From Gammaproteobacteria bacterium (GTDB taxonomy: Bacteria; Pseudomonadota; Gammaproteobacteria; JAUZRS01), in NCBI GenBank assembly GCA_030949385.1, contig JAUZSP010000001.1, positions 248,001 through 312,000 of the forward strand: a stretch of 64,000 bases of DNA, in the 5' to 3' direction. The stretch's first letter is position 1; each line of letters begins with the position of its first letter. The notes beneath the pieces were generated by a model. It searched no databases and had not been told where the DNA came from. It saw only the letters and a program-made list of their open reading frames with translations. Below are positions 24,929 to 35,623 of the stretch, one piece after another. Position numbers and translations under genes: made by a program.

Positions 24929-25585
24929 TCAAATCAGCTCTAAGGCCGCTTTTGGTTCGGGCAACACATACCCCTCATCCAACAGACGAGCAACATCTTC
25001 CGCCTCATCCACATCCCAACGGCTCGGCAAGGCCAGCCAATCCCAACGCAAACGGCGCAGACGCTGCACAGTCTGGGCGTAAACGTGCTCACTGCCCCAG
25101 TCAATGTTCACAAACAAAGAGTGATGATAACGAGACAGGCCGATCAAAGCGTAACCGCCGTCCTCAGCCGGAATGATCACCGCATCCCGTCCCGCAGCCA
25201 GCTCAGACATGACACGATGCAAATCATCAGCAGTGATCGAAGGACAATCACTGCCCAGCAACAACACATAAGGCGAACGCAACAGCGTACGACGCAAGGC
25301 ATCGCCCATACGCTCACCCAGATCACGCCCACGCTGAAAACAGCGATTAAATTTAAACTCACGTTGGCAGGTTTGCCAAAACGCATCGGCGCGTTCACCC
25401 GCTTGCCACACCTGAAGCGATGCCAAATTTGCCTGCTGCACAGTCTGCAAGCTTCGCCACAGCAGACGCACATGCAGCTGCGCTGCACCGCGCACCCCAA
25501 GGGAGAGAATCAGACGGGTTTTCACCACCCCAGGCTGGGGTGATTTCGCGAACAACAAAATTTTTGCGTTGGGAAAAGAAACCAC
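24929..25585 (-). CDS. TIGR04282/DUF2064 family glycosyltransferase-like protein
   Basis: The protein has 218 residues and starts with GTG at 25585, directly after the stop of the preceding gene. It has a nucleotidyl/glycosyl-transferase-A-like fold: AKSPQPGVVKTRL at the N-terminus, LLLGSDCPSITADDL in the middle (metal-binding Asp) and IPAEDGGYALIGL. The subfamily is named for its regular pairing with the radical SAM protein ArsS and the TIGR04283 protein, as here. By context it should help build or attach the sugar part of an arsenosugar; the chemistry is inferred. Confidence 0.88.
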   Translation of the reverse strand: MVSFPNAKILLFAKSPQPGVVKTRLILSLGVRGAAQLHVRLLWRSLQTVQQANLASLQVWQAGERADAFWQTCQREFKFNRCFQRGRDLGERMGDALRRTLLRSPYVLLLGSDCPSITADDLHRVMSELAAGRDAVIIPAEDGGYALIGLSRYHHSLFVNIDWGSEHVYAQTVQRLRRLRWDWLALPSRWDVDEAEDVARLLDEGYVLPEPKAALELI

Positions 25586-26263
25586 CTACAAGACGCTGTA
25601 ACGGTGTGCCAAACGACTCGGTGCAGCCCCAAAAAAGTAGCGTAGGCGCAGTGACCACATCAAAAATACGGTGCGCCAGATGCCGTTTTTCTCCCAACGA
25701 CGACTGGAGGTGGTCAAGGTCGCCGACACACACTTAGGCCAAGAAAGACGCTTTAACGAACGACTCAAAGCGATGTCTTCCATCAGCGGCAGATCAGCAA
25801 AACCGCCCACCTTATCGAAAGCCGAATGCAAGACGAACACACCTTGATCACCGGTGCAGATGCCCGACAGACAAGAACGCAGATTCATCATCCGCTCCAC
25901 CAAACGCAACGGCCACGCTTTGCCCGACAAGCGCACATTAAATCGCCCCCAGAGCCGATCTTGCAACGCGTGCTGTAACAGCCGATCACACTGTTTTGGC
26001 ACCAAAGTATCGGCGTGTAAAAACCACAAAATCGCCCCCTCAGCCACCGCTGCACCAGCGTTCATCTGCCGCGCACGGCCCTGATAACCCGACAAAACCC
26101 GATCCGCCAACGGCTGCGCCAGCGCCACCGTCTCATCCTGACTCTGAGCGTCCACCACAATCACCTCATGCCCCAAGGCACGCAGCGGTTGCAAACGCTG
26201 CAAGGTCTCCACAATCACCTCAGCTTCGTTTAGAGCTGGAATCACCACCGAAATTTTGAACAT
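25586..26263 (-). CDS. TIGR04283 family glycosyltransferase (family 2)
   Basis: The protein has 225 residues. It is a GT-A family 2 transferase: ISVVIPALNEAEVI, VIVVDAQSQDETVA, FLHADTLVP (metal-binding DxD equivalent) and ADLPLMEDIALSRSL. The C-terminus ends RRWEKNGIWRTVFLMW then LRYFFGAAPSRLAHRY, typical of this subfamily. It lies nine bases after arsS and zero bases before the TIGR04282 gene, so the three are co-transcribed. Its acceptor is unknown; arsenosugar assembly is inferred from the cluster. Confidence 0.9.
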   Translation of the reverse strand: MFKISVVIPALNEAEVIVETLQRLQPLRALGHEVIVVDAQSQDETVALAQPLADRVLSGYQGRARQMNAGAAVAEGAILWFLHADTLVPKQCDRLLQHALQDRLWGRFNVRLSGKAWPLRLVERMMNLRSCLSGICTGDQGVFVLHSAFDKVGGFADLPLMEDIALSRSLKRLSWPKCVSATLTTSSRRWEKNGIWRTVFLMWSLRLRYFFGAAPSRLAHRYSVL

Positions 26264-26272
26264 CTCGCCTCC

Positions 26273-27238
26273 TCACTCACTCAAGGCACCGCCGCAACTC
26301 GATCCTTGCCCAGCGGTGCAACCGTAACAGTGATCTGCTACTTGAATCTCTCGACCATAAAGGTTTTCGCCCTGCAAGTCACTCAGATGCCATTTTTTTT
26401 TCTGCGCGTCTCCAATGGACAGATCCAACATCTGGTTAAAATCACAGTCATAAACAAAACCCTGCCAATCCACACTCAATAACGATCGACACATCACCGA
26501 GGCCAAATTATTCACCTGATAAGACGCTTTTAGCAGATCCATATACTGTTTGAATTTTCCCTTGGAGATCAACAGGCTACCAAAACGCTGAATCGGTAAA
26601 TTGGTCAAGGTTAGCAATTGATTAAAACGGATGCCGTATTTCTGCCACAAAAACATTTTATAATCCGCTTCCAAAGCCGCCTGTGGTGGCGGCAACGTCG
26701 CTCCCTGAGGATTATAAACCAAGTCCAGTGACAACCCAGAACCGTCGATCCCATAGCCCAACTCATTGAGCTGCTTTAAGCCACGCACACTTTCGGCAAA
26801 AACGCCTTTACCACGCTGGGCATCGACGTTTTCTTCTAAATAACAGGGCAGAGAGGCCACCACCTGCACCTGCTGATCCGCCAAAAACTGCGCCAAACCC
26901 TCTTGCCTAGGCTGCTCTAACACGGTCAAATTGCAGCGATCAATCACCGTCACCCCCAATTTACGCGCCTCCGTCACCAAATAACAAAAATCAGGATTCA
27001 GCTCCGGCGCACCGCCGGTCAGATCCAAAGTCTGAATCTGCTCATCACGCAGATAAGCCAAAACCATATCCATCGTGGTTCGATCCATCAACTCGGTACG
27101 ATTGGGGCCAGCATTGACGTGGCAGTGCAGACAAGATTGATTGCAGAGATAACCCAAATTAACCTGCAAGGTCTGCAATTGGGCGCGTTTTAAAGGGGGA
27201 AATTGGCTTTCAATCAGATGCGGTAAGGTCGCGTGCAT
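26273..27238 (-). CDS. arsS: arsenosugar biosynthesis radical SAM protein ArsS
   Basis: The protein has 321 residues. It has the radical-SAM cluster motif CNQSCLHC at about 32-39, the GGE-like LTGGAPELNP segment that contacts SAM, and a C-terminal Cys-rich region (MCRSLLSV, YDCDFNQ, CYGCTAGQGSSCGG) typical of ArsS. ArsS joins a 5'-deoxyadenosyl group from SAM to dimethylarsenic, the first committed step to arsenosugars, using product of the methyltransferase ArsM. No arsM gene is in this window. It is the first gene of a three-gene operon with two glycosyltransferase-like proteins. Confidence 0.92.
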   Translation of the reverse strand: MHATLPHLIESQFPPLKRAQLQTLQVNLGYLCNQSCLHCHVNAGPNRTELMDRTTMDMVLAYLRDEQIQTLDLTGGAPELNPDFCYLVTEARKLGVTVIDRCNLTVLEQPRQEGLAQFLADQQVQVVASLPCYLEENVDAQRGKGVFAESVRGLKQLNELGYGIDGSGLSLDLVYNPQGATLPPPQAALEADYKMFLWQKYGIRFNQLLTLTNLPIQRFGSLLISKGKFKQYMDLLKASYQVNNLASVMCRSLLSVDWQGFVYDCDFNQMLDLSIGDAQKKKWHLSDLQGENLYGREIQVADHCYGCTAGQGSSCGGALSE

Positions 27239-29038: not shown

Positions 29039-31789
29039 ATGTCAAATTCACGTCACTCAAAAACAGAGCCTCTTCAGCACCCTAAACGCCATCCGACGTC
29101 CCTCCCCTTGTCGGCAAAAATGGCGTTGTTTGGTCTGATGCTCGGTGCCTTGGTCTGGCAACTGCTGGCGCTGCTGCAAGAACCCGCACTGCAACAGATT
29201 CTGCATAACGAACTCAAACAGCAACTGCAAATCGAAAACAGCACCTCTCGCAGTCAATTTGACCGCTACCTAAAACAGTACCCCAAAATCGTGCAACTGC
29301 TGGCCAGACAACAAACGCTGATCCAGTACAGCAGCAAGTTGTTGCCCAGTGGCTCAGTCTCCAGCAGCCCTCGCCCACCCCCTTGGTTGCAACACAGCTC
29401 CAGCTGGCACGGCCTGATCCACCCCAGCCACATTGTGCTGCTCGACGCACAACACCGGTTGCGCGAAATTTATCAGCTGCGCAAACAAGCCCTGCCCAGC
29501 GAACTGCAACAACCCAACGCAGAATTATTGCAATTAGCAAAAGACCAAAATTACCTCACCACCTTGAGTGACAAACCCTATCTGCTAACCTTGTCGGCAA
29601 TTAAAAACAAGCAACACACCGTTGCCTATTTACTGCTTCTAGCCCCCCTAGACAGCTCGTTTTTACGTCACTCGCAACACGATTTTCACGGCCGAAAAGC
29701 GATTATCGCGCTGCTCAGCGGCTTTCAACAGCAGACGGTTTTTGCCAGCAGTGACCCCGTTCAACTGCCCTTAAATACTCAGCTCAATGAAGCACAAACG
29801 CAATTTATGATCACGGGAAAAACCTTTTTCGATTACGGCTCCTCTGATCTAAAACTGCGTTTTTCCACCCTTTTGAGCAAAGACCAGATCAACGCCCTCA
29901 ACACCAACCTTATCCAACTGACACAAAAACAGTTGTTGATCGCTTCTCTCTGTTTTATCGGCGCGTTTATCGGCCTAATGCTCTACTACGCCACTCGTCT
30001 CAAACGCTTAAATCAGCGAGCGCTCAACTTTTCTCAACAACATCTCGGCCTGAAACCAACGGACAAGCCACATCGAGATGAGATGATGCAACTGGAAAAA
30101 GGGTTGGAACAGTTAATCCAACAGGTGCTCAAAAACCAACAAAAACTGCAAAAACGTCATTCCATTGAGAAAAAAATAAAACAATTTGAAATCCTGCAAA
30201 CGGCCACCGAATCCCTCGGTGTCGGTGTCATTCTCACCGGCGATGTAGAGGGTGAAGGCTACGCCATCACCCAACAGATGAAACGCTTTGCCGAAGACTG
30301 CGGTGGCATCGCCTTTTTTCTGCAACAGGCCGAGCAACACCAACAAATAGAATGCCTTGATCAACACCTGCAACAGCGTATTTTTAAGCTGCGCTGGTTG
30401 TCGCTGGCCAACGAGCAAGAGCGCGTTTTATTGGTACAAGAAGAGACCGAACTGGTGGAAAGCATGGCGATGCTCGAACACCAAGCCCAACACGACAGCC
30501 TCACCGGCCTGCCCAATCGCAGCCTGTTTATGCAGCGCTGTCAGCAAACAATGAACGACTGCCACAAACAGCCTCAACACCCGTTTTCATTGATGATGAT
30601 GGATCTGGATCGTTTCAAAGCGGTCAATGACACACTGGGGCATCACATCGGCGACCAACTGCTGCAACAGGTCAGCCAACGACTCAGCAGCCGTCTGCGC
30701 AGCAACGACACTCTGGCGCGCCTCGGCGGCGATGAATTCGCCTTGTTGCTGCCCAACACCGACGCACAACAGGCCAAGCAAGTGGCCGAACTGCTGCAAC
30801 AACAGCTCAAAAAGTCCTTTATCCTCAATCAGCACAGCCTCTCCATCAGCACCAGCATCGGCATCGTCACCTGCCCCGATCACGGTAAAAAAACCCATAT
30901 CCTAATGCAACGTGCCGATGTGGCCATGTACGCCGCCAAACGCTCGCAAATGGGGTATTGCATTTACGACCCCAGCAAAGACCCCAACAGCGAAGAACGG
31001 CTGCAATTGATCAATGAATTAAGCGAAGCCATTGAAGCCGAACAGTTGGAACTCTATTTTCAACCGCAACACGATTGCCAAAGCGGAAAAACCTCCGTCG
31101 TTGAAGCCCTGCTGCGCTGGCAACACCCTCGCCACGGCCTGCTGTCACCGGCGCGTTTTTTAACTCTGGCCGAACAAAATTCGCTGATGATCCCCTTAGG
31201 AAAAATGGTACTGAAAAAAGCCATTCAACAGTGTGAGCAGTGGAACCAACAAAACCTGCCTATGACCGTCTCCGTCAATCTCTCCGCCCACAGTTTTCAA
31301 GACGACGAACTGCTGCCCTACATTACCCAATTGCTCAACAACCACCACGTTGAAGGTCGGCAATTAACTTTGGAGCTGACCGAAAGCAGCCTAATGGACA
31401 ACCCCAACAAAGCCCGCAGCCTTCTCACCAAACTGGACAATTTAGGAGTGCAATTGGCCATTGATGATTATGGCACCGGCTACTCCTCTTTGGCCTATCT
31501 GCAACAGTTGCCCGTCAATGAACTGAAAATCGACCAATCCTTTGTCACCAATATGCACCAAAACAGCGGCGATGAAGTGATCGTCCGCTCCACCATTGAT
31601 CTGGCACACAACTTGGGCCTAGAAGTGGTCGCTGAAGGCATTGAAAACCAACAGGTTTGGCAGATGTTGCACGAAGCGGGCTGCAACCGCCTACAAGGTT
31701 ATTTTATCGCCAAACCAATGCCCGCCACCCAAATTCCCGCCTGGATCAAACAACAAAACAGCCCCTTCCACTCTCGCTCTTGTGCCTAA
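29039..31789 (+). CDS. membrane GGDEF-EAL protein (c-di-GMP turnover), paralog 1
   Basis: The protein has 916 residues. One helix near 30-48 and another near 300-318 (LLIASLCFIGAFIGLMLYY) enclose a periplasmic sensor domain of about 250 residues that carries SSWHGLIHPSHIVLLD and KTFFDYGSSDLKLRFSTLL. After a helical linker and a PAS-like segment comes a GGDEF domain (HDSLTGLPNRSLFM; intact RLGGDEFALLL at about 563-567) and an EAL domain (VVEALLRWQHP, ELTESSLMDN, AIDDYGTGYSSLAYL, KIDQSFV). Both catalytic motifs look intact, so it could make and break c-di-GMP. A close paralog follows at 32888, with a periplasmic binding protein between them. Confidence 0.93.
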   Translation: MSNSRHSKTEPLQHPKRHPTSLPLSAKMALFGLMLGALVWQLLALLQEPALQQILHNELKQQLQIENSTSRSQFDRYLKQYPKIVQLLARQQTLIQYSSKLLPSGSVSSSPRPPPWLQHSSSWHGLIHPSHIVLLDAQHRLREIYQLRKQALPSELQQPNAELLQLAKDQNYLTTLSDKPYLLTLSAIKNKQHTVAYLLLLAPLDSSFLRHSQHDFHGRKAIIALLSGFQQQTVFASSDPVQLPLNTQLNEAQTQFMITGKTFFDYGSSDLKLRFSTLLSKDQINALNTNLIQLTQKQLLIASLCFIGAFIGLMLYYATRLKRLNQRALNFSQQHLGLKPTDKPHRDEMMQLEKGLEQLIQQVLKNQQKLQKRHSIEKKIKQFEILQTATESLGVGVILTGDVEGEGYAITQQMKRFAEDCGGIAFFLQQAEQHQQIECLDQHLQQRIFKLRWLSLANEQERVLLVQEETELVESMAMLEHQAQHDSLTGLPNRSLFMQRCQQTMNDCHKQPQHPFSLMMMDLDRFKAVNDTLGHHIGDQLLQQVSQRLSSRLRSNDTLARLGGDEFALLLPNTDAQQAKQVAELLQQQLKKSFILNQHSLSISTSIGIVTCPDHGKKTHILMQRADVAMYAAKRSQMGYCIYDPSKDPNSEERLQLINELSEAIEAEQLELYFQPQHDCQSGKTSVVEALLRWQHPRHGLLSPARFLTLAEQNSLMIPLGKMVLKKAIQQCEQWNQQNLPMTVSVNLSAHSFQDDELLPYITQLLNNHHVEGRQLTLELTESSLMDNPNKARSLLTKLDNLGVQLAIDDYGTGYSSLAYLQQLPVNELKIDQSFVTNMHQNSGDEVIVRSTIDLAHNLGLEVVAEGIENQQVWQMLHEAGCNRLQGYFIAKPMPATQIPAWIKQQNSPFHSRSCA

Positions 31790-31893
31790 TAATCCGGTGA
31801 TTTACTGGCCTTAATAAAAAATTTGATGTACAACTGTTAATCAAGTGTTTGCAACACAGGTCGCTAAAACAGATCCCTTTATCGGAAACCATC

Positions 31894-32874
31894 ATGCTAA
31901 AACACGCCTGCTTCACCCTGCTGCTGCTCACCGGCCTTGCCAACAGCGCACCCGCGCAACACCATTTTGACCACAGCCCGATCAATAACAACAAATCAGC
32001 CCAGTGGATCAAGCAAGGCATTCAGTATAAAAAGGACGTACCCAGCGATGTGGATCTGCTGGTCAGCCTCGACCAACAGCAGTACCCCGCTCTAAAAAAA
32101 CTCATCCAACAATTTGCCCAACAACATCAGCTCAACATTTCCGTCAGCGACGGCACCTGTGGCATTTCTGCGGGTTTGCTCTCCCGAAAACAGGCCGACA
32201 TTGGCGGCTTCTGTTGTCCACCTGGCGCTGGAGACCGCCTACCTGGATTGCGTTTTCATACCCTTGGCATTGCCGCTTTGGCCATGATCACCCACCCCGA
32301 CAACCCCACTGACAACGTCAGCTTTGAACAGGCACAAAAACTCTTCAGCGGTGAAATAGAAAGCTGGAATGAACTGCCTAAGATCACCGATGCCCGCAAC
32401 GTCCAAGCCATCACCCGCCTGCACTGCAAAAAACGCCCAGGGCATTGGAAACTGCTATTGGAAGATGAAAACTTCTTTAGCCCGATGGCGATGGATATGG
32501 GTGCCATTCCCGATGTCATTACCCACACCCATCAAACGCCCGGTGCCATAGGCTACGAAACCCTCGACATGGTTCAGCGTTACCAAGGTTCAGAGAAAGT
32601 CAAAATACTCAACGTCAACAACAGCAGTCCCCATGATCTGCAAGCCTTGGCATCAGGTCGTTACCCACTCTATCGAACCTACAGCATTACCACTTGGCAA
32701 GGTACAGCCCACAACCCCTTGGCCGATAAATTGGTTGCCTACCTGATCCAGCAGCTGGAATCACAAACGATTGAAAAAAATCTGTTAACCCCGAGTAAAT
32801 TACGCCAAGCGGGCTGGCAATTTAACGGCGATGAGCTGATTTCCGCTCCACCGCCACCCCACAGCAGACATTAA
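31894..32874 (+). CDS. phosphate-binding-like periplasmic protein between two GGDEF-EAL genes
   Basis: The protein has 326 residues from the ATG at 31894, which gives a signal peptide (MLKHACFTLLLLTGLANSAP). It has the PstS-type periplasmic binding fold: VSDGTCGISAGLLSRKQADI (equivalent of the GxGxGI ligand loop), TLGIAALAMITHPDNP, SFEQAQKLFSGEIESWNEL and GAIGYETLDM. The ligand loop contains Cys where PstS has Gly/Ser, and GGFCCPPGAGDR follows about 20 residues later, which suggests a disulfide or metal site. No ABC permease is nearby. Since it is flanked by two membrane receptors with similar periplasmic domains, I infer that it presents a ligand to them. Confidence 0.82.
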   Translation: MLKHACFTLLLLTGLANSAPAQHHFDHSPINNNKSAQWIKQGIQYKKDVPSDVDLLVSLDQQQYPALKKLIQQFAQQHQLNISVSDGTCGISAGLLSRKQADIGGFCCPPGAGDRLPGLRFHTLGIAALAMITHPDNPTDNVSFEQAQKLFSGEIESWNELPKITDARNVQAITRLHCKKRPGHWKLLLEDENFFSPMAMDMGAIPDVITHTHQTPGAIGYETLDMVQRYQGSEKVKILNVNNSSPHDLQALASGRYPLYRTYSITTWQGTAHNPLADKLVAYLIQQLESQTIEKNLLTPSKLRQAGWQFNGDELISAPPPPHSRH

Positions 32875-32887
32875 CAGAAGGCCAGGG

Positions 32888-35623
32888 ATGGACAACAAAC
32901 AAAACATATCTTCCAAGCAACACCCCAGATGGCGAGTCTCTCTTCCTATCTGGATCAAAGCAACCCTGCTGACCGCCGCGCTGGGTTTGTTTACTTGGCA
33001 ACTACTGGAGTGGCAACAAGCACCCCGTCTACAAATCATTTTAGAACACAGTCTGGAACAACAGCTGGATAAAGAACTGCAAACCGCTCGCAACCAATTT
33101 GACCACTACCTCAAACGTCATCAACAACTCACCGACCTTTTTGCGCTCAATCTAAATCTCAAACAGCACCTTAAATCTCTCGCCTCATCGCCCAGCGACG
33201 AAAAAATTCAAACCCACCGCCGCCCTCCGGCTTGGCTACCCAAAATATCCAGTTGGCGCGGCCTAGTTCACCCCAGCCACATCTTACTGTTTGACAAAAA
33301 TCAACTGCGCGAACTCTACAAGCTCAGAAAAAAGCCGTTACCGCCCCCCTTAATCAACCCCGAACCCAACCTTTTACAACAAGCCGAAGGCGGTTATTTT
33401 ACGGTTCTGGAAGAGCAACCCTATCTGCTAAACCTGAAAAACACCCATGATTCAAAAGGTCATCTATTGGGCAGAATCATGCTGCTCACGCCGCTAGACA
33501 GCCAGTTTTTACAACATTCACAACGGGATTTAAGAAGCCGTGAGGTCATCACTGCTCTGTTCAGCGAACAGGCTGGCGAACAACGAATCTTCACCAGCAG
33601 CGCGCCTGAAACCATTCCTGCTCACACCTCCCTGCACTCGCTGGAGAAAACCCATCTGATCAGCGGTAAAAGTTTCTTTGACTACGGCAACTCGGAACTC
33701 AAACTGCGTTTTTCCACCTTATTGGCAAAAACCCGCTTGGTAGAGCTAAATCACAATGTCACCAAACTGGAGCGGCAGCAACGCCTTATTGCCGCCTCCA
33801 CCTTTATCACCGTTTTTCTCTTGATGGTGCTCTACTACTCATTTCGCCTACGTCTGTTGAATAAAAACACCCTGCTGTTTTGTCAGCACCACCTCTACAT
33901 GGACGCGCCTGCTAGCAACAAAAAGGATGAGATGGTTCGATTAGAGGAGAACTTTGAACACCTAATGCAACAAGTCATTCAGAGCCGCATTCACGATCAA
34001 AACCGTTATGAAGTAGAAAAAAAAGCCAAACAGTTTCATGTCTTGCAAGCGGCTACCGAAGCGTTGGATATCGGGCTTATTTTGTGTGAACAACCGGAGG
34101 AAGGCCAAATTCTCACCCAACGAATGCACGAATTTGTTCAAGAATGTGGTGGCCTCGATCAATTTCTTGACCACCCTCACACCCACCATCAATTGGAATG
34201 CATGGATCGCCATTCGCAACAGCGCATCTTTAAAATCCGCTACCTGCCGCTGCCTGACGGCGCTTTGGTGCTGCTGGTACAAGAGATCAGCGAGTTAGTC
34301 AAAAACTCTCATCAAGCGCAACACGATGCCCTAACCGGCCTGCCCAACCGCAGCCTGTTTATGGATCGTTGCCAACAAGCGCTGCGCGCCTACCAACGCA
34401 ACAAAACCCCCTTCAGCCTAATCCAAATGGATCTGAATAAATTCAAAGAGGTCAACGACACCCTAGGCCACCACATCGGCGACCTGCTGCTGCAACAGGT
34501 CTCTCAACGTCTGCACCAGCACCTTCGTTCCATCGACACCTTGGCGCGTCTGGGTGGTGATGAATTTGCCCTGCTGCTGCCCGACACCCATGGCAGACAA
34601 GCCGAAGAGGTCGCCAAACACCTGCAACAAAAACTGCAAAAACCAATGCAATTGGAAGATCACAGCCTCACCATCGGCATCAGCATGGGCATCACCAGCG
34701 CCCCCCACAACGGCGATCAACTGGATAAACTGCTGCAATGCGCCGATGTGGCGATGTACGAAGCCAAACACAATCAACTCGGTTACAAACTCTACGACCC
34801 CAAACAAAATCCCGATGACAACGAACGCCACCAGCTCATTAACGAGCTGCGCGAGGCGATTGAGTCGCAAAGTTTAGAGCTGTTGTTCCAACCACAACAA
34901 AACCTCAGCAGCGGCCAACACACGGTGATGGAAGCCCTTATTCGCTGGCCACATCCCCGCTTGGGTTTGATGGAACCGAGCGATTTTCTCCCCCTAGCAG
35001 AGCAAAACGCGCTGATCATCCCCCTCACCTCATGGGTGCTGGGCAGCGCCATTGAGCAGTGTGGCCAATGGAAAAAAAGTGGCCTAGAGCTAAAAGTAGC
35101 GGTCAATCTAACTTCTCACAGCCTGCAAAATGAAAATCTAGCCGCCTTCATTCGCACCCAATTGGCCATTCAAGAGCTGGCAGGAAAACAGTTGATTTTG
35201 GAGTTGACAGAAAACATCCTCATGGACAGCTCCCCCCGCGCTCGGCAAATTTTAGATGACCTCGATGAACTGGGGGTGCAACTCTCCATCGACGACTTTG
35301 GCACCGGCTACTCCTCCCTCTCTTATCTACAACAGCTCCCAGTGAACGAACTAAAAATCGACAAATCCTTTATTTTAGGGATGCAAAGCAGTGACAACGA
35401 CGCTTTGACCGTGCATTCAAGCATCTATCTGGCGCACAAATTTGGCTTGAAAGTGGTGGCAGAAGGGGTAGAAGACCCCTGGGTATTAGACAAACTCAAA
35501 AAAGCCGGTTGTGATCGAGTGCAAGGCTATTACATTGCCAGACCGATGTCCGCCAACCAAGTAGAAAAATGGATAAAACAACAGACACAAAAAGTAGGGG
35601 CGAAAGAGTTTTCGCCCCTTTGA
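32888..35623 (+). CDS. membrane GGDEF-EAL protein (c-di-GMP turnover), paralog 2
   Basis: The protein has 911 residues and the same layout as paralog 1: a helix at about 23-41, a periplasmic sensor (SSWRGLVHPSHILLFD, KSFFDYGNSELKLRFSTLL), a second helix near 298-318, a helical linker, GGDEF (intact RLGGDEFALLLPD) and EAL (VMEALIRWPHP, ELTENILMDS, SIDDFGTGYSSLSYL, KIDKSF). The conserved periplasmic blocks indicate a shared type of input. It starts 13 bases after the binding-protein gene, so the two are co-transcribed. Its last nine codons (VGAKEFSPL) are supplied by a palindromic repeat (copy C), so the present C-terminus may be a recent extension. Confidence 0.93.
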   Translation: MDNKQNISSKQHPRWRVSLPIWIKATLLTAALGLFTWQLLEWQQAPRLQIILEHSLEQQLDKELQTARNQFDHYLKRHQQLTDLFALNLNLKQHLKSLASSPSDEKIQTHRRPPAWLPKISSWRGLVHPSHILLFDKNQLRELYKLRKKPLPPPLINPEPNLLQQAEGGYFTVLEEQPYLLNLKNTHDSKGHLLGRIMLLTPLDSQFLQHSQRDLRSREVITALFSEQAGEQRIFTSSAPETIPAHTSLHSLEKTHLISGKSFFDYGNSELKLRFSTLLAKTRLVELNHNVTKLERQQRLIAASTFITVFLLMVLYYSFRLRLLNKNTLLFCQHHLYMDAPASNKKDEMVRLEENFEHLMQQVIQSRIHDQNRYEVEKKAKQFHVLQAATEALDIGLILCEQPEEGQILTQRMHEFVQECGGLDQFLDHPHTHHQLECMDRHSQQRIFKIRYLPLPDGALVLLVQEISELVKNSHQAQHDALTGLPNRSLFMDRCQQALRAYQRNKTPFSLIQMDLNKFKEVNDTLGHHIGDLLLQQVSQRLHQHLRSIDTLARLGGDEFALLLPDTHGRQAEEVAKHLQQKLQKPMQLEDHSLTIGISMGITSAPHNGDQLDKLLQCADVAMYEAKHNQLGYKLYDPKQNPDDNERHQLINELREAIESQSLELLFQPQQNLSSGQHTVMEALIRWPHPRLGLMEPSDFLPLAEQNALIIPLTSWVLGSAIEQCGQWKKSGLELKVAVNLTSHSLQNENLAAFIRTQLAIQELAGKQLILELTENILMDSSPRARQILDDLDELGVQLSIDDFGTGYSSLSYLQQLPVNELKIDKSFILGMQSSDNDALTVHSSIYLAHKFGLKVVAEGVEDPWVLDKLKKAGCDRVQGYYIARPMSANQVEKWIKQQTQKVGAKEFSPL
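35594..35618. repeat. GTAGGGGC-type palindromic repeat, copy C (inside a coding end)
   Basis: GTA followed by a perfect nine-base stem, GGGGCGAAA (35597-35605) and TTTCGCCCC (35610-35618). It encodes the last residues of the GGDEF-EAL protein that stops at 35623. It may also end that transcript. Confidence 0.7.

Follow-up and report, generated by a model that had tools for sequence, protein, structure and literature searches.

What does a secreted protein of the PstS fold do when its gene stands between those of two GGDEF-EAL receptors, with no transporter genes beside it? The question is raised by three genes, here called R1, B and R2, in a 64,000-nucleotide stretch of gammaproteobacterial DNA (the window, whose positions are used throughout). 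Inputs are known, to our knowledge, for only a few c-di-GMP enzymes. Of the binding-protein clan, which has 27 Pfam families, only SBP_bac_3 had been studied in c-di-GMP networks according to a 2022 review of c-di-GMP sensing (PMC8846402).

The R1-B-R2 locus

The three genes and their parts are arranged as follows.

29039-31789, plus strand: R1, transmembrane receptor with a periplasmic domain modelled as LuxQ-like, a GGDEF and an EAL domain (ORF, Pfam, model, motifs)
29189-29893, plus strand: R1 periplasmic domain as in alignment A4
30485-30949, plus strand: R1 GGDEF domain with RxxD motif (PF00990, residues 483-637)
31013-31717, plus strand: R1 EAL domain (PF00563, residues 659-893)
31849-32874, plus strand: B, secreted PstS-fold binder with signal peptide (ORF, Pfam, alignment)
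32158-32160, plus strand: codon of Cys104, loop 1, aligned with the Ser of the PstS GSG loop
32212-32217, plus strand: codons of Cys122-Cys123, CCPP, loop 2, Cys122 aligned with a PstS Asp or Ser
32422-32427, plus strand: codons of His192-Cys193, RLHC, loop 3, Cys193 aligned with the Ser of the SGT/SGS loop
32888-35623, plus strand: R2, GGDEF-EAL receptor, paralogue of R1 (ORF, Pfam, alignment, motifs)
33029-33742, plus strand: R2 periplasmic domain as in alignment A4
34316-34774, plus strand: R2 GGDEF domain with RxxD motif (PF00990, residues 477-629)
34841-35545, plus strand: R2 EAL domain (PF00563, residues 652-886)

Both receptors contain full-length GGDEF and EAL domains (Pfam E-values 1e-47 to 1e-77) in which every motif is complete (RxxD...GGDEF, EALLRW/EALIRW, NLS/NLT, ELTE, DDY/FGTG, KID, VAEG(I/V)E and QGY); with the catalytic motifs of both domains intact, they are predicted to be bifunctional. 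Their identity of 52% over 899 aligned positions, shared periplasmic blocks included, rules against a chance likeness. The first 300 residues of R1 and of R2 contain no cysteine at all, so that B is the only one of the three proteins that could carry out thiol chemistry in the periplasm.

B is matched by PF12849 (PBP_like_2) at an E-value of 1e-13. It has its fold family in common with the PstS phosphate-binding proteins, and its loops align with theirs, but it scores 50.9 bits against the PstS family model TIGR02136, far under the cut-off of 206.6. Translation likely starts at 31894, at an in-frame ATG that begins a hydrophobic leader, and not at the TTG at 31849; from the end of R1 to this ATG there are about 100 bases, and from the end of B to R2 there are 13. 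Consensus promoter and terminator scans of the locus gave matches at or below chance, and plasmid records contained three weak PstS-like matches and nothing more.

The four cysteines and the ligand

Apart from Cys21 in the leader, B contains exactly four cysteines, Cys104, Cys122, Cys123 and Cys193, and the segments DGTCGIS and GFCCPP are both found in it. In alignments of its loops with those of 4exl, a phosphate-binding protein, and of two PBP_like_2 proteins encoded at other loci, Cys104, Cys122 and Cys193 replace Ser or Asp residues of the phosphate loops, residues that contact phosphate in PstS. Since the AlphaFold model of B reaches a mean pLDDT of only 38.5, the cysteine cluster is argued from the alignment.

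A profile of the core binder, run on 369 genomes of the class, left a wide gap between true matches (399 bits or more) and the rest (127 bits or less), and placed the binder in 10 genomes spread over 8 families. Another 74 matches came from other classes, in a draw of 398 genomes across the phylum, and 40 of these loci were examined. All four cysteines are conserved in 51 of the 52 core binders, the exception being L187, which lacks Cys122, and the aligned mature core contains no further cysteine in any of the 52; His137, Arg190, His192, Arg196 and Trp200 are invariant. The preliminary description of the locus had reported shared periplasmic blocks and intact GGDEF and EAL motifs in the receptors, a PstS-fold binder without transporter genes between them, and in the binder a cysteine in the ligand loop (DGTCGIS) and a GFCCPP segment. 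All of this holds, and the cysteines prove to be the sole ones of mature B, conserved and, by alignment, set on the phosphate loops; this pattern agrees with its suggestion that they may make the binder redox- or metal-dependent.

The same four-cysteine pattern occurs in a sister binder family found in 15 of the 369 genomes at 16 loci (one binder being in two pieces and one truncated). At 14 of the 16 the sister binder adjoins a membrane protein from a different family, whose members are homologous to one another; it carries GGEEF in 13 cases and is a histidine kinase in one. The binder of G310 is followed directly by a GGEEF frame, and in G037 a kinase gene lies next to it in convergent orientation. 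No similarity was found between these partners and the periplasmic domain of R1 and R2. A further PBP_like_2 group, with a GG(S/T/A)CR motif, has a single cysteine at the place of Cys122 and is isolated, with no signalling genes adjacent, which suggests that the first cysteine arose at the Cys122 position.

Periplasmic cysteines are often disulfide-bonded, and B could be a signalling partner in which the four are structural (disulfides, perhaps vicinal) and which binds a small organic molecule or an ordinary oxyanion; an anion could still bind, as Arg190, which aligns with the loop arginine of PstS, is invariant in 52 of 52 core binders. However, all four cysteines occupy ligand-loop positions rather than the body of the protein, two of them are adjacent, and the sister family, which has another receptor as its partner, retains all four positions. 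We regard a purely structural role as unlikely, though it deserves to be taken seriously.

Arsenic as the ligand of B is weakly hinted at, and is a lead rather than a finding. Its basis in the window is a group of genes 1.8 to 4.1 kb upstream of R1:

24932-27238, minus strand: ArsS radical SAM gene and two arsenosugar-type glycosyltransferase genes (TIGR04167, TIGR04283, TIGR04282)

There is also a precedent in the AioX-AioS system, in which, according to PMC5908839, the oxyanion-type binding protein AioX links arsenite through a gained pocket cysteine, Cys106, and signals to a histidine kinase. B might sense arsenite in the same manner, but AioX, with its single pocket cysteine, belongs to the PhnD-like proteins, whereas B is a PBP_like_2 protein with, by alignment, four. 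A Pfam scan of B returned no phosphonate-binding family, which places it outside the AioX-type PhnD-like group, and our reading of the ORF list of the window found no arsenite oxidase genes beside B. Across genomes, ArsS exceeds its cut-off in 9 of the 10 with a core binder as opposed to 25 of 49 controls (p 0.03, uncorrected for kinship), and does so in 11 of 14 genomes with the sister binder only and 6 of 7 with the receptor only; an arsenite methyltransferase gene (L075 296-1162, plus strand) lies near a sister binder that has a histidine kinase partner. Yet ArsS is common in the class, and it is near the binder in this genus only, the other seven core binder genomes with ArsS having it on a different contig or hundreds of kilobases off, while the Acr3 exporter exceeds its cut-off in just 2 of the 10 core binder genomes and is absent from that of the window. 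We consider arsenite sensing by B improbable.

A short regulator-like ORF precedes the arsenite methyltransferase gene of L075. No neighbouring gene points clearly to the ligand of B: clustering of the neighbours of the core loci yielded only genes common to 4-8 loci, housekeeping by our reading and without a clue to the ligand. Examples are a signal-recognition-particle-like gene and a maf-like gene.

Inheritance of the binder with its receptor

The periplasmic domain of the receptor, searched with its own profile, is present in 17 of the 369 class genomes, among them all 10 that have the core binder (hypergeometric 1.7e-15 for this overlap, shared ancestry being ignored). A receptor gene stands next to the binder at 9 of the 12 gammaproteobacterial core loci (G000, G001, one of two in G035, G077, G083, both in G094, G177 and G217), and where the binder is unlinked (G033, G088 and the second of G035) a receptor is found elsewhere in the same genome. 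In other classes, where the pair recurs often in several copies per genome and at least once in Magnetococcales, the receptor domain is directly beside the binder and on the same strand at 34 of the 40 loci examined, which brings the adjacent pairs to 43 of 52 core loci. The six loci without an adjacent receptor are L169, L179, L191, L193, L194 and L201. In L193 the contig stops 364 bases beyond the binder, the binder of L201 has what reads as a receiver-like gene for a neighbour, and in L169, L179 and L194 the binder directly adjoins a REC-PAS-GGDEF gene. Further upstream in these last three are PilT-type ATPase-like genes (assigned by Pfam in L179 and by clustering in the others), so that a link of this arrangement to twitching motility is possible.

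The two proteins have also diverged together. Over the 43 pairs, distances between binders correlate with those between receptors at a Spearman coefficient of 0.59, the best of 2000 permutations reaching 0.24, and paralogues within a genome pair consistently in both proteins in 14 of 15 comparisons, several of them with small differences; the clearest cases are G422 with G469 and G485 with G388. A binder inherited with a transmembrane receptor in this way is expected of binding-protein-activated receptors, and on gene evidence B and its receptors can be assigned to that kind.

Seven of the 17 receptor genomes have no detected core binder, and some receptors may work without one. In G195 a binder gene does lie beside the receptor but is interrupted and partly missing; in G214 (77% complete) there is no binder at the receptor, which has a purB-like neighbour (by reading) as in its genus-mate G094. 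A receptor kinase with a receiver domain (L102 3990-7768, minus strand) adjoins an interrupted, partly missing binder gene.

A Pfam scan of the periplasmic part of R1 gave no convincing family, with weak CHASE4 matches in two relatives. We modelled it with AlphaFold (residues 1-373, from four sequences) at a middling mean pLDDT of 69.5. The best matches to this model are the periplasmic domains of LuxQ (Z 15.5-15.9, rmsd 2.9-3.4), the next fold reaching 11.2 and the amino-acid-binding double-Cache domains 9-10. Foldseek alone did not single LuxQ out, as it placed other Cache domains level with or above it, and the preference for LuxQ therefore comes from the second structural aligner. As modelled, the R1 periplasmic domain has the LuxQ fold; its identity to LuxQ is 9%, and we do not claim LuxQ as a sequence family for this part of R1 and R2, to which Pfam gives no convincing match. 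The LuxP binding protein docks on LuxQ, as the titles of structure entries 2hj9 and 1zhh state.

The amino-acid double-Cache scores and the receptor genomes lacking a detected binder would also suit receptors that sense a ligand directly through a PAS-like periplasmic domain, with B as an unrelated neighbour. We find this very improbable in view of the presence of the receptor in every binder genome, its adjacency at most loci, the inheritance of paralogues as pairs, and LuxQ scores well above those of the amino-acid Cache domains.

What follows the periplasmic domain varies. Receptors of G035, G177 and G217 end in a histidine kinase, those of the window, G001, G077 and G083 in GGDEF-EAL, and of the two G094 loci one has GGDEF-EAL and the other only GGDEF; the 34 adjacent receptors of other classes are histidine kinases by motif or Pfam, L185 being left out. 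The most frequent output is thus the histidine kinase, and otherwise GGDEF or GGDEF-EAL. In a tree of 51 periplasmic domains R1 and R2 group with full support, each pairing with its G001 orthologue, from which it follows that their duplication predates the split between the species of the window and G001. The contig of G001 breaks inside R1 and at B, which is consistent with an R1-B-R2 order.

No dedicated permease was found with the binder. In the 10 class genomes, the 80 kb on either side of each of the 12 core binders are free of PF00528 matches, the closest such permease on the contig of the window being about 180 kb from B; in the 34 genomes of other classes, among the matches listed, the nearest are at about 5 kb (G394) and 9 kb (G400). 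The absence of a dedicated permease expected of receptor-type binding proteins is therefore found at 12 gammaproteobacterial loci and, among the matches listed, in other classes. The distant similarity of B to PstS structures within the PBP_like_2 fold might make it a stray phosphate-binding protein serving the Pst transporter of the cell, but with its TIGR02136 score, cysteine in place of the phosphate-loop serines, and neither a permease nor pst transporter genes nearby, we reject this phosphate-transport reading as extremely improbable.

The preliminary description had taken the three genes for a ligand-sensing cassette in which the binder is a signalling partner, and had named, as the cases that would speak against this, a binder found mostly with ABC permeases, or receptors that bind ligand directly in a gene order that is not conserved. 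Neither is what was seen: the PF00528 scan placed no permease beside the binders, among the matches listed for other classes, and the signalling role gains support from a pair kept over many families and from the LuxQ-like receptor model. The cassette idea is strongly supported, with one binder and one receptor as its general unit: this pair recurs in many families, but the two-receptor order, among the loci examined, is seen only in this genus. In this genus, we infer, one binder serves both R1 and R2.

Proposed mechanism and related systems

Based on these data, we propose a mechanism for R1-B-R2 that we judge to be probable. B would be a soluble periplasmic binding protein that has given up transport for signalling, and in which four cysteines, together with the conserved His192 and Arg190, have remodelled the phosphate site. 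The remodelled site would either hold a thiol-reactive ligand (reactive sulfur, or the ion of a soft metal or metalloid) or close by a thiol/disulfide change. Loaded or closed, B would dock on both R1 and R2, at their LuxQ-like periplasmic domains, and shift the balance between their GGDEF and EAL activities in one direction or the other, thereby setting the level of c-di-GMP.

This mechanism has relatives among known systems. In the NspS-MbaA pair of Vibrio cholerae the activity of a membrane GGDEF-EAL enzyme depends on a soluble binder in the periplasm, as proposed for B. NspS is a PotD-like polyamine binder; B, in contrast, has the PstS fold and, by alignment, four pocket cysteines, and here there are two receptors per binder. 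Ligand occupancy sets the cyclase or phosphodiesterase state of MbaA (PMC8967002).

The LuxP-LuxQ system of Vibrio, an AI-2 binding protein and a sensor kinase, resembles ours in the receptor, in that LuxQ is the best match to the modelled R1 domain and a histidine kinase is the common output of R1-type receptors elsewhere. It differs in that the output of R1 and R2 is GGDEF-EAL and their identity to LuxQ is low (9%). LuxP belongs to another class of binding proteins than B. Judged by sequence family, B is neither PstS nor AioX.

Our literature searches of open-licence PubMed Central papers found no description of a four-cysteine binder family, and binder and receptor look like an undescribed two-part sensor. 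The novelty lies in a phosphate-type site with four thiols, in how widely the output is swapped, and in the form in which a single binder would serve two enzymes. We advance more tentatively, as an attractive but somewhat doubtful extension, that B founds a family in which a four-thiolate PstS-type site receives a soft metal, a metalloid or reactive sulfur, with histidine kinase, diguanylate cyclase and GGDEF-EAL as modular outputs, and in which one binder drives two c-di-GMP enzymes in parallel in this genus. Such a family would be a compact input module, with four cysteines in one soluble protein and natural kinase or c-di-GMP outputs. If the proposal is true, it shows how a phosphate site becomes a thiol-based sensor, and R1-B-R2 raises the question of whether two enzymes can be set simultaneously by a single sensor.

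Several further observations concern the binder families and the surroundings of the locus. Sister binders were seen at L040, L043, L045, L073-L081 and L129-L131, and one-cysteine PBP_like_2 proteins at L015-L019, L023, L024, L026-L028 and L031. A third four-cysteine-like binder sequence (GGLCCP, RRHC; L047 4552-6984, plus strand) is convergent with a histidine kinase gene. At two core loci a small membrane-anchored protein is encoded directly upstream of the binder (L034 9007-9492, minus strand; L071 5734-6231, plus strand); it has a CxxxxxxC or similar motif and no Pfam match. In the window, a metallo-beta-lactamase-like gene (distant TIGR04559; 27644-28943, minus strand) is split into two ORFs. 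Its counterpart in G001 is a single ORF of 424 residues (L111 7561-8832), and from the sequence we read the split as a frameshift or sequencing error.
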